Positions 1,650 through 5,139 of a stretch of 10,466 nucleotides of DNA are shown piece after piece. Source of the DNA: Oscillospiraceae bacterium (GTDB taxonomy: Bacteria; Bacillota; Clostridia; WRCU01); assembly GCA_009783805.1 (NCBI GenBank), contig WRCU01000028.1, forward strand, positions 1 to 10,466, in the 5' to 3' direction. How positions within the stretch are numbered: the stretch's first letter is position 1; each line of letters begins with the position of its first letter. The translations under genes were made by a program, and so were the position numbers. Under the pieces are notes generated by a model that was not told where the DNA came from, made no database searches, and was given only the letters and a program-made list of their open reading frames with translations.

Positions 1650-4082
1650 ATGGGCTATTTCCGCAAGGTCTCCGAGCTGCATAAGGACGCCTACGACCGC
1701 TTCGCCGCCCATAAGGGGGTGAGCCTCGTCGAATCGGACCGCGACCGTTCCAAGCCCGCGAAGCCGACGGGCCACCACCTGCGCGAGTACGCCCTGCTCG
1801 CCGGCGAGCATCCGGTCCTGCGCGAGGCGCGGGCCATTAGGGCCTTCATGTCGAACTGCGCGGTCGAGGTGGACCCCCGCGAGCTCGTCGTCGGCAATAA
1901 GCCGAACGGGTCAAGGGAGGTCTCCGGCTTCCACTTCGGCGGCGGGACCTTCCTGCGGGCCAACCTTCTGGATGAGTACATGGAAGGCATGGGCGAGGCC
2001 AGGAAGGCGGCGGCCCAGGAACGCGTCCGCAAGGTCAAGGAAAATAGGCACATGGCCTATTGGGACCCCGACTTCACGAAGCTGAACGGCGAGGTCTTCA
2101 CCGAGGCCGAGACGTTCGGCCTACGCACGTGCGCGGCCGGCTCCACCTGGTTCAACGGGCACGTGGTGGTCGACTATGAGCGGGTGCTCAAGGGGATCAA
2201 CGCCCGGCGCGAGAACATCAGCGACGCCGCGTACGCGAAGGGCATCCAGACCGACAAGATGGGTATCCATGCGATCCGCTCCCCCAGCTACACCGACGAC
2301 CTGAGCGGCTACACGGACGGGCTGGTCAAGCGGCCGCCCAGGCCGAAAGACGCGGCGAAGGCCGAAATGCACGACCTCGAGTCGTTCTACATGGGCATGC
2401 ACTATATCCTGGACACGTTCGCGATCCTCATCCAAAGGACTGCGATGGCTTGCTTCGACGCCGCCAAGAACGAGCGCGACCCCGACCTGCGCAGGAACAT
2501 GCTGGACCTGCACGCCGACCTGACCCACATATCGGCCGAGCCCCCCGAAACGTTCAGGCAGGCCCTGCAGCTCGTGTGGTTCGCCCACATAATGGCCGAC
2601 ACGGACACCTTCGGCAGGTTCGACAAGTACCTATACCCATTCTATGAGCGCGACCTAAGGAAAGGGACCATAACGGAGGACGACGCCCTATACCTGCTCA
2701 AGGCCTTCATGGTGAAGGTCGATGAGGCCTCGGACATACAGAACATGACGGTCGGGGGCCTCATGCCGAACGGCTCGCCCAGCTACAGCGGGCTGACCTC
2801 GCTCATACTGCGCGCCGTCAGGGAGGCGGGCTACAAGGGCCCTAACCTATGCCTCAGGGTAAACGGCCATATGGATGACGCCCTATGGACGGAGGCCTAC
2901 AGGCTCATGAGGACGGGGCAGGGCCTCCCGGCCCTCTACTCCGACGACGTCATGGTCGCGCAGCTCACGGGCGCGGGCATCCCCCTAAGGCACGCGCGGG
3001 ACTACTGCCTCGCGGGCTGCAGCCAGATCATGGTCCCGGGCCGATGCCAGTTCGTGAACGACATCGGCCTGATGAACGTCGCCAAGATACTCGAGCTGAC
3101 CCTGTACGGCGGCGTGGACCTGGCCAAGTCAAAGGCCGACTCCGGCTTCTCCACCGGCGACATAGCGTCGTACGACGGCTTCGAAGGGCTGATGGAAGCC
3201 TTCAAGCTGCAGCTCGCCCATTACGCGGCGATGGAGGCGAGCGTCAACAACAAGATAGTGGGGTTGGTCTCGCGCAAGGAAGGGTACGCGTTCCGGACGC
3301 TCTTCGTCGAGGACTGCCTCGCCAAAGGTAGGAACATATACAACGGCGGCGCCCTATACAACAACACGCAGCTGGAGTGCATAGGCATCACGAACGCGGC
3401 CGACTCGCTCTACGCCATCAAGAAGGTCATCTATGACGAAGGCTTCGCCACGCCCGCCGAGCTCAGGGACGCCCTGCTGGCCAACTTCGAGGGTTATGGC
3501 AGGTTGAGGTCGGAGTTAATGAAGGCGCCCAAGTTCGGAAACGACGACGACGGCGTCGACACGGTCAGGGCCGACATAACGCGCTTCCTCTTCGATGAGC
3601 TCAGGAGGCAGGATTCGTTCGTGGGCGGGAAGTACGTCCCCGGCGAGGTGATATTCGTCGTGCACGACCCGCAGGGCAAAAACACGGGCGCGACCCCAGA
3701 CGGCCGCCTGGACGGCGAGTGCCTGGCGGACAGCGCCGGCGCCTCGCAGGGCAAGGACATATCGGGGCCCACGGCCCTGCTCAACTCCGTGCTGAAGATA
3801 CCCGTGGACGGGCTATGCACGACGATAGTGTGCAACATGAGGTTCTCGAAAAGCCTCTTCTCCAATAACGGCAGGAAGCCGATGTCCCTCATCAGGTCCT
3901 TCTTCCGCGAGGGGGGGCAGCAGATCCAGGTGAACGTCACGGATAAGAACGAACTGCTGAGGGCAATGGAGGAGCCGGGCAGGCACATGGACCTCATCGT
4001 CCGCGTGGGCGGGTACAGCGCATACTTCCAGACGCTGTCGAGGCGCCTGCAGATGGACGTCATCAACCGGATGGAGTATTAG
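1650..4082 (+). CDS. Glycyl radical enzyme of the PFL/diol-dehydratase superfamily, atypical active site
   Basis: An 810-residue, full-length, cytoplasmic, oxygen-sensitive glycyl radical enzyme. The C-terminal glycyl loop is intact: RVGGYSAYF at 785-793, with Gly788 (codon 4011-4013) as the radical site. The thiyl Cys is Cys457 (codon 3018-3020) in AGCSQIMVPG. Other family landmarks are NGHVVVDYERVL (His171), ETFRQALQLVWFAH (300-313), GRFDKYLYPFY (322-332), PKFGNDDDGVDTV, GATPDGR (680-686) and GPTALLNSVLKIP. It lacks the Cys-Cys pair of true pyruvate formate-lyase. It also differs from glycerol/propanediol/choline-type eliminases: Cys-x-Glu is Cys-Ser-Gln here, and the His-containing NGHS loop expected before GRFD is replaced by a shorter ADTDTF stretch. 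Automated labels such as 'formate acetyltransferase' would therefore be unsafe. The start ATG follows AAGGA (1637-1641) by 8 nt, and the gene begins 27 bp after the aldolase stop, implying one operon. A role on a C2/C3 product of fucose or arabinose breakdown is inferred. The required radical-SAM activase is not in the window. Confidence 0.9.
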   Translation: MGYFRKVSELHKDAYDRFAAHKGVSLVESDRDRSKPAKPTGHHLREYALLAGEHPVLREARAIRAFMSNCAVEVDPRELVVGNKPNGSREVSGFHFGGGTFLRANLLDEYMEGMGEARKAAAQERVRKVKENRHMAYWDPDFTKLNGEVFTEAETFGLRTCAAGSTWFNGHVVVDYERVLKGINARRENISDAAYAKGIQTDKMGIHAIRSPSYTDDLSGYTDGLVKRPPRPKDAAKAEMHDLESFYMGMHYILDTFAILIQRTAMACFDAAKNERDPDLRRNMLDLHADLTHISAEPPETFRQALQLVWFAHIMADTDTFGRFDKYLYPFYERDLRKGTITEDDALYLLKAFMVKVDEASDIQNMTVGGLMPNGSPSYSGLTSLILRAVREAGYKGPNLCLRVNGHMDDALWTEAYRLMRTGQGLPALYSDDVMVAQLTGAGIPLRHARDYCLAGCSQIMVPGRCQFVNDIGLMNVAKILELTLYGGVDLAKSKADSGFSTGDIASYDGFEGLMEAFKLQLAHYAAMEASVNNKIVGLVSRKEGYAFRTLFVEDCLAKGRNIYNGGALYNNTQLECIGITNAADSLYAIKKVIYDEGFATPAELRDALLANFEGYGRLRSELMKAPKFGNDDDGVDTVRADITRFLFDELRRQDSFVGGKYVPGEVIFVVHDPQGKNTGATPDGRLDGECLADSAGASQGKDISGPTALLNSVLKIPVDGLCTTIVCNMRFSKSLFSNNGRKPMSLIRSFFREGGQQIQVNVTDKNELLRAMEEPGRHMDLIVRVGGYSAYFQTLSRRLQMDVINRMEY

Positions 4083-4461: not shown

Positions 4462-5139
4462 ATGAATAAAGGCCTAACCTTAACGCTGGCAATCCTGCTC
4501 ACGGTCGGCATGCTCACGTCATGCGGGGGGGACGGCGGTGACGGAGGCGTAGGCGGTGACGGAGGCGTAGGCGGCGACGGCGATGGGTCTCCCACGGGCA
4601 ACGACGCTCGGGTGGTCATGGCGTCGGAGCTCCTCACCTTGGATGACGCCGGGCGATTGCTCGGGGGGGATGTGGAGGTCAGGGAAGGGAATGGCGACAA
4701 GGTCGAGCCATCTTCGCTGGGTAGGATCACCACCGTATACAACTCGGATGCGGGGGCGAGCTCACCATACTCCGTCTCCATCGGCATCTATCAGGACGCC
4801 ATGCTGGACGGGGGGAACGCGGCCCATAGGCCATACATAGACAACGGAGGCATAGCCTATTACCAAGCGTCGATCAGGCCCGACCGTGAAGGCAAGGATA
4901 AGGCGGTCATAATGGAAGGCCTCGGCGACTGGGCTTGCGTAACCGGACTTGACAGGTTGGGGTTCGCGGCCGCCCATACGCTGGAGATCGGCTATGGGGG
5001 CTACTGCATAAGCATAACGATGGTCAATTGGCCAAAAGGCAACGCTTTCAGCGATGGGGAGAAGGCAGCCTGGAAGACCGAGAGGCTGACGGAAGCCGGG
5101 CGGCTCGCGTTCGATCGCTTGAAGGCCATCGTGGGTTGA
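4462..5139 (+). CDS. Secreted lipoprotein of unknown function
   Basis: A 225-residue predicted lipoprotein. Residues 1-20 form a lipoprotein signal peptide (MNK, hydrophobic core LTLTLAILLTVG) ending in the lipobox LTSC, with Cys21 the expected diacylglycerol-modified N-terminus after signal peptidase II cleavage. Residues 22-46 are an almost pure Gly/Asp/Val tether encoded partly by an 18-bp tandem repeat. The folded part (about 50-225) has a LLTLDDAGRLLGG segment, then beta-rich stretches (SPYSVSIGIY, AYYQASIRP, GDWACVTG, YGGYCISITMV) and a C-terminal helix (TEAGRLAFDRLKAIV). Cys159 and Cys182 could pair. The pattern of an N-terminal 'Leu-x-x-Asp-Asp-Ala' helix, strands, and a last helix resembles small actinobacterial lipoproteins such as the DUF3558 group, but I cannot claim homology. 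It is transcribed away from secG and converges with the transporter gene. No substrate or partner can be inferred. Confidence 0.85.
   Translation: MNKGLTLTLAILLTVGMLTSCGGDGGDGGVGGDGGVGGDGDGSPTGNDARVVMASELLTLDDAGRLLGGDVEVREGNGDKVEPSSLGRITTVYNSDAGASSPYSVSIGIYQDAMLDGGNAAHRPYIDNGGIAYYQASIRPDREGKDKAVIMEGLGDWACVTGLDRLGFAAAHTLEIGYGGYCISITMVNWPKGNAFSDGEKAAWKTERLTEAGRLAFDRLKAIVG
4534..4581 (+). repeat. 18-bp tandem repeat in the lipoprotein tether
   Basis: Two identical 18-bp units (4534-4551 and 4552-4569; GGCGGTGACGGAGGCGTA) are followed by a degenerate partial third (4570-4581). Each unit encodes six residues of the Gly/Asp/Val tether after the lipidated Cys. As the unit is a multiple of 3, copy-number change would lengthen or shorten the tether without a frameshift. 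Confidence 0.85.

Follow-up and report, generated by a model that had tools for sequence, protein, structure and literature searches.

Eliminases of the glycyl radical enzyme (GRE) superfamily carry a Cys-x-Glu (CXE) motif in which a Glu stands two residues after the thiyl Cys. According to the papers on HypD (PMC7077986) and IslA (PMC8473560), GRE eliminases have CXE as a conserved trait, and the substitutions E436Q in HypD and E470Q in IslA abolished activity; the IslA paper gives the motif of that enzyme as Cys-Ile-Glu, and the HypD paper names Thr645 of HypD as a substrate contact. The subject of this analysis is a GRE, an oxygen-sensitive radical enzyme, encoded in a 10,466-base stretch of DNA, hereafter the window, which is the entire contig WRCU01000028.1 (C28 in our numbering) of an Oscillospiraceae genome (1.92 Mb, 339 contigs, 73% complete). 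At the place of CXE this enzyme has Cys-Ser-Gln (CSQ). A sequence-only reading of the window had proposed a GRE outside the families characterised so far; comparison with relatives and a structure model bear this out for the characterised families compared, and we describe the CSQ GREs as a distinct, well-defined clade, with clade and fold both well supported. Our preferred reading, to which we give a probability of about 0.4, is a working enzyme of this separate clade that would combine a relocated acid/base, with Glu666 the leading candidate, and a pocket enlarged for a sugar-derived substrate.

A clade of glycyl radical enzymes with Cys-Ser-Gln

The window protein has a C-terminal RVxGY radical loop (RVGGYSAYF), a thiyl Cys on the central loop, and a barrel fold typical of GREs in its structure model (predicted local distance difference test score 89, predicted template modelling score 0.90). 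Its Pfam matches to PFL-like (387 bits) and Gly_radical (PF01228, 78 bits) both exceed the cut-off. The radical machinery is intact, as had been claimed, in an uninterrupted open reading frame (ORF). Pyruvate formate-lyase shares the fold and the radical Gly, but the Cys loop here (AGCSQ) lacks a Cys-Cys pair and the pyruvate formate-lyase model scores 106 bits against a cut-off of 994, so that the earlier exclusion of this enzyme held. Scores fall far below every cut-off for the NCBIfam equivalogs HypD, CutC, HpsG, HpfG, IAD, HPAD and PFL, and the X-succinate synthases are distant (158 and 163 bits).

A search for relatives found 178 sequences, of which 120 were listed; the 113 listed rows longer than 640 residues, the window protein included, were aligned, and the seven shorter rows were set aside. 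Among these 113, the Cys-loop motif is CSQ in 112 and CNQ in one. Although identity falls to about 35%, the radical Gly and thiyl Cys are retained, and Gln459, Asp319, Asp471, Glu576, Glu666 and Gly788 are present in all 113; His171 is present in 112. The Gln that had been singled out two residues after the thiyl Cys, where Glu is expected, is thus a property of the whole set. In a phylogenetic tree the 26 CSQ rows included all fall on one side of a single branch with support of 100 in the Shimodaira-Hasegawa-like approximate likelihood ratio test, which answers the earlier question of whether the variant forms its own cluster. For comparison we used 301 non-CSQ rows (119 of a CNQ clade, 116 of a CVQ/CVE family introduced below, and 66 locus rows with some repeats); just one has Glu at position 666, a long-branch row from contig C115 of the window's own genome for which the alignment is doubtful at that point. 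The same genome encodes a second CSQ enzyme, on contig C119 downstream of a sulfatase gene, which keeps Glu666 and Asp319 and has Ala at position 471 and Gln at position 576.

The clade looks rare in its class. The 60 nearest comparison genomes belong to the same class as the window's genome, with nothing closer. A class survey of 391 genomes, with an E-value of 1e-150 and two candidates scored per genome, a strict threshold that may miss distant members, matched 27 genomes; motifs were read in the 30 of 33 match rows that had a locus, and CSQ came solely from the window's own genome (two enzymes) and from genome G083. CSQ is not the sole exception to CXE, since class relatives also include CHW, CNW, CNM and CWG rows, and CVS in enzymes of the Cys-Cys type.

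Alignments were read for seven solved GREs (GD and PD, the B12-independent glycerol and 1,2-propanediol dehydratases; CutC; YbiW; 6xs4; HypD; HplG), and all are CXE; the remaining solved GREs, including X-succinate synthases and decarboxylases, were ranked by score only. Placement in an already characterised family that uses CSQ, the outcome that would have spoken against a separate group, did not occur, and the idea of such a family is not supported, the seven and IslA all being CXE. The best matches by sequence and by Foldseek are GD and PD (1r8w, 5i2a/5i2g), which share the Gly loop, the thiyl Cys and the equivalent of His171; theirs, however, are CVE enzymes with an NGHSIS hairpin, a beta2-beta3 segment and Leu at 666, and their signature of CXE and the His-Ser of NGHS is absent from the window GRE. 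HypD (6vxc) has the same fold, and its His160 corresponds to His171, but it differs in its CVE motif, its Asp278 loop and its beta2-beta3 segment, and the window GRE scores 335.5 against a HypD cut-off of 1100. YbiW and PflD (8id7, 8id0) again share the fold and, by their entry titles, bind a sugar-sized ligand, an anhydrohexitol 6-phosphate. YbiW differs in having CIE and both pocket segments; a PflD-like protein encoded on a plasmid of E. coli (L068), read in place of 8id0, has CVE and both segments. The uncharacterised CNQ clade is alike in its Gln at Cys+2, two short segments, Asp319-Ser320 and His171, but forms a separate branch with Cys666 (119/119), Glu471 (116/119) and Leu576. No characterised member of the CSQ clade was found among the proteins compared. 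Because every CSQ relative examined has Gln for Glu and has lost two pieces of the pocket wall, the chemistry of the clade is not readable from any characterised relative. Literature searches, which included the CSQ and CXQ motifs and left most subscription journals outside their coverage, found no paper on the clade, and the novelty in print of a GRE clade without CXE is judged from these searches only.

Pocket wall and candidate acid/base residues

Segment lengths were counted over 133 CSQ-clade rows, repeat copies (also of the window) included. The His hairpin, already noted as shortened and replaced by ADTDTF, spans residues 311-323 and has 13 residues in all 133, compared with 19-20 in 28 of the 31 CVE locus rows; in the CVQ/CVE family its length is 19 in all 116 rows. 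A second short segment, which the sequence-only reading had not described, lies between strands beta-2 and beta-3 (residues 353-370); it measures 18 residues in 131 of 133 CSQ rows, whereas 26 of the 31 CVE locus rows have 33-34 and all 116 rows of the CVQ/CVE family have 33. The CXE eliminases GD, PD, CutC and HypD have both segments at full length and also the Glu; of these eliminase features the window GRE keeps the beta-1 substrate residue, as His171. A short hairpin also occurs in 118 of 127 CNQ rows and in a few uncharacterised CXE rows, namely CTE (3/3), CQE (2/2), CAE and CNE rows, so that a short hairpin by itself is not diagnostic of the clade. The HypD paper mentions Ser334 of HypD and Phe333 of GD, and by our own placement from the alignments one of the missing segments would hold these. 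The pocket of the CSQ clade is accordingly predicted, from alignment and model, to be opened and wider.

The sequence-only reading had allowed, against itself, that the Glu might be shifted yet still present in the pocket. This is possible, with the invariant Glu666 of strand beta-8 as an unproven candidate. A separate family, named CVQ/CVE here, provides a precedent. A search with an ORF of locus L113 (13255-15612) found 358 relatives, of which 120 were listed (P0241-P0360) and 116 aligned; sources include Sporomusa, Clostridium aminobutyricum and Emergencia timonensis. Among the 116, rows with Gln at Cys+2 have Glu667 in 70 cases and lack it in two, rows with Glu at Cys+2 have Glu667 in 12 and lack it in 30, and two rows combine Asp with Glu667. 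In a FastTree phylogeny the Gln/Glu667 rows form three groups, each adjoining Glu/Glu667 rows, and Glu667 on strand beta-8 therefore seems to precede the loss of the Cys-loop Glu in this family. Its two best solved matches are GD and HplG, both CXE; the HplG motif (CIE) was checked because HplG ranked second. A literature search on GD with Tyr640 found no paper. Because Glu667 of this family lies on the same strand, analogy suggests Glu666 as the leading candidate for a moved acid/base in the CSQ clade. A simple charge swap between Glu576 and Gln459 is not preferred, since only 18 of the 48 CXE locus rows (a few of them repeats) have Gln at position 576, and the C119 paralogue carries Gln there as well.

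Gene surroundings

Features of the window are collected in Table 1. Rightward, the genes are a fucI fragment, a class II aldolase, the GRE, secG (minus strand), a 225-residue ORF, an MFS transporter and an SdrD_B-repeat protein (minus strand).

Table 1. Coordinates and evidence for the GRE, its key residues and neighbouring features in the window
Feature	Position	Strand	Evidence or remark
L-fucose isomerase (fucI), 3' part, cut by contig edge	2..658	+	NF008220 345 bits, profile 373-589; Pfam Fucose_iso_C
Class II fructose-bisphosphate-type aldolase, 304 residues	708..1622	+	Pfam F_bP_aldolase PF01116, 196 bits
GRE of CSQ clade	1650-4082	+	ATG start, 810 residues, ORF uninterrupted
His171, equivalent of HypD His160	2160..2162	+	112/113 rows; register from alignments
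Shortened His hairpin ADTDTFGRFD	2595..2624	+	6 residues fewer than GD and PD
Asp319	2604..2606	+	113/113 rows
Shortened beta2-beta3 segment, residues 353-370	2706..2759	+	about 15 residues fewer than GD, PD, CutC, HypD
Cys457-Ser458-Gln459, thiyl Cys loop	3018..3026	+	Cys457 TGC 3018-3020; Gln459 CAG 3024-3026
Asp471	3060..3062	+	113/113 rows
Glu576	3375..3377	+	113/113 rows; Gln here in 18/48 CXE locus rows
Glu666 (PGEVIF), strand beta-8, candidate relocated acid/base	3645..3647	+	113/113 rows; 1/301 non-CSQ rows
Gly788, glycyl radical site (RVGGYSAYF)	4011..4013	+	alignment and sequence
225-residue ORF	4462-5139	+	N-terminus lipoprotein-like by eye; 0 matches in Pfam or NCBIfam
Surface-type ORF, 1325 residues, open at contig edge	6489-10466	-	nine SdrD_B stretches

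The sequence-only reading had placed the GRE in a fucose/arabinose-type operon. The fucI and aldolase genes do lie directly upstream on the same strand (gaps of 49 and 27 bases), but this operon-like order is confined to the window, and fucI is a 3' fragment that, as a fragment, scores below the full-length cut-off of NF008220. The aldolase belongs to PF01116 and not to PF00596; its score lies below every listed NCBIfam cut-off, so that no substrate is assigned to it. Eighteen further loci were fetched, among them 15 CSQ and two CXE loci (L022 and L023); L024 was not readable as a whole GRE and was left out. BLASTP (E-value 1e-8) found no relative of the window fucI or aldolase among the ORFs of the 18 loci, several of which have short flanks. 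This includes L008, whose GRE is 54% identical to that of the window and whose flanks measure about 2.6 and 1.7 kb. Since conserved fucI and aldolase neighbours were not found at these 18 loci, fucose, lactaldehyde and propanediol are not established as substrates, and a fucose-operon reading for the entire clade is rejected.

Over 17 CSQ loci (the 15 fetched, the window and C119), a selective scan of neighbours, not covering every ORF, found genes linked to carbohydrates next to the GRE or in its vicinity at seven, a raw count: DUF2961 at L009, which we take to be linked to glycosidases, Gfo/Idh/MocA at L010, a GH42-like gene at L012, an esterase and GH130 at L013, GH3 and sugar-ABC genes at L019, the sulfatase at C119, and fucI/aldolase in the window. 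By motif scan, an activase-type gene adjoins the GRE at two of 16 loci (L012 and L019), and a further activase-like piece was seen about 7.5 kb away from the GRE of L021, at the edge of that locus. The window's genome encodes six different GRE genes and one fragment (contigs C28, C32, C115, C119, C244, C245 and C87 cover GREs and activases). It yields 20 radical-SAM matches, of which four were typed and two, on C87 and C245, exceed the TIGR02494 cut-off for GRE activases. As these two lie elsewhere and the window has none, the GRE would be activated in trans.

Several further observations concern these surroundings. Genes of the URO-D family are repeatedly found adjacent to GRE or activase genes or a few kb away from them, by Pfam at L009 (3831-4994), L019 (6903-7946), L021 (14188-16242) and L106 (3204-4181) and by eye at L001 (3266-4378). 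CNQ-clade GREs occur in tandem (L109, 1524-8032; L110, 1-3248), three in a row in genome G073 and two in G101, the first of the latter pair cut by a contig edge. At L108 (4861-15423) an activase-type gene comes after a CNQ-clade GRE, and the vicinity also holds genes for GH95, a class II aldolase, a xylose-isomerase-like protein and an FGGY kinase. The window's genome also has a rhamnose-type set (L125, 897-5345) with rhaI above its cut-off, a rhamnulokinase-like gene below its own, and a class II (PF00596) aldolase whose match is weak. In the window, the MFS transporter is nearest to the NCBIfam L-lactate transporter model, below the cut-off, and the 1325-residue ORF has an LPFTG-like end, presumably a sorting motif, followed by a hydrophobic stretch.

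Interpretation and alternatives

The preferred reading, a working CSQ enzyme with a relocated acid/base and an enlarged pocket, draws on the branch support of 100, the invariant residues, the retention of Glu666 and Asp319 in C119, the Gln/Glu667 precedent in a separate family, the wider pocket, and the carbohydrate genes at seven of 17 loci. An activase acting in trans would generate the radical on Gly788. Cys457 would then abstract hydrogen from a carbon that carries a hydroxyl group; the substrate would be larger than the C2-C3 diols on which known eliminases act and probably derived from a sugar or polyol, and the adjacent C-O bond would be eliminated. The proton transfer normally carried out by the CXE Glu may fall to another acid of the barrel. 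Glu666 is the first candidate, followed by Glu576 and Asp471; Gln459 and His171 would hold the substrate. Both the relocation and the sugar-derived substrate are things we infer.

A number of observations weigh against this reading. In the CVQ/CVE family, two Gln rows lack Glu667 and group with Glu rows on the tree; by parsimony, three gains of Gln cost only one step less than a single gain followed by three reversions, and support is weak at some nodes. Glu666 sits one residue off Glu667 of that family. Thr645 of HypD aligns with Phe669 of the window GRE, so that plain strand alternation would put residue 667 on the pocket side and Glu666 away from it unless there is a bulge; two models, the second giving secondary structure only, both end the regular strand in this stretch and do not settle the register. 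The CNQ clade differs in having Cys at 666 and Glu at 471, and short pocket segments are present in some uncharacterised CXE rows too. In the VIA-align ranking the dehydratases come below an uncharacterised GRE (2f3o) and an arylacetate decarboxylase. Ten of the 17 CSQ loci have no carbohydrate gene among the scanned neighbours, which include cell-shape, FHA, methyltransferase and ABC-exporter genes, and the motif scan found no activase in the window.

It is rather doubtful that the CSQ enzymes instead perform radical chemistry without a base on a substrate hydroxyl, such as isomerisation, C-C cleavage or addition, or epimerisation, the Glu being simply lost and Gln459 serving in substrate binding only. 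The nearest solved relatives by both sequence and Foldseek are glycerol and diol dehydratases, and the retention of His171 and Asp471 speaks against it as well. We consider it improbable that the enzyme acts on lactaldehyde, 1,2-propanediol or glycolaldehyde in a fucose or D-arabinose pathway. The genes directly upstream favor this, as do the GH95, aldolase and FGGY kinase genes near a CNQ-clade GRE elsewhere, but neither upstream gene has a relative at the fetched loci, and the CXE and His-Ser hairpin of diol dehydratases are missing. There is likewise a small chance that the substrate is an intact sugar, sugar phosphate or sugar acid and that Asp471 with His171, or Glu576, is the catalyst in place of Glu666. 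Asp471 and Glu576 are as invariant as Glu666, and the anhydrohexitol 6-phosphates crystallised with YbiW and a PflD indicate that the GRE fold accepts hexose-sized ligands; the C119 paralogue, however, lacks both Asp471 and Glu576 and has Glu666. A degenerate or inactive enzyme, to which the missing Cys-loop Glu and the absence of an activase from the window might point, is very improbable given residues conserved down to about 35% identity and two activases elsewhere in the genome.

More broadly, and tentatively, the catalytic Glu of GREs may not be fixed to the Cys loop: Gln replaces it in at least three lineages (CSQ, CNQ and CVQ), with an acid elsewhere (666, 471 and 667), and the CSQ clade would possibly add an opened pocket and a so far undescribed radical cleavage of C-O bonds in intact sugars or their derivatives. 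CXE, described as the conserved feature of GRE eliminases, is an aid in inferring function from sequence. A clade that consistently lacks it, together with a family whose tree allows the change to be traced, makes a movable base testable, and sugar-sized substrates for such GREs in anaerobes likewise become a testable question.
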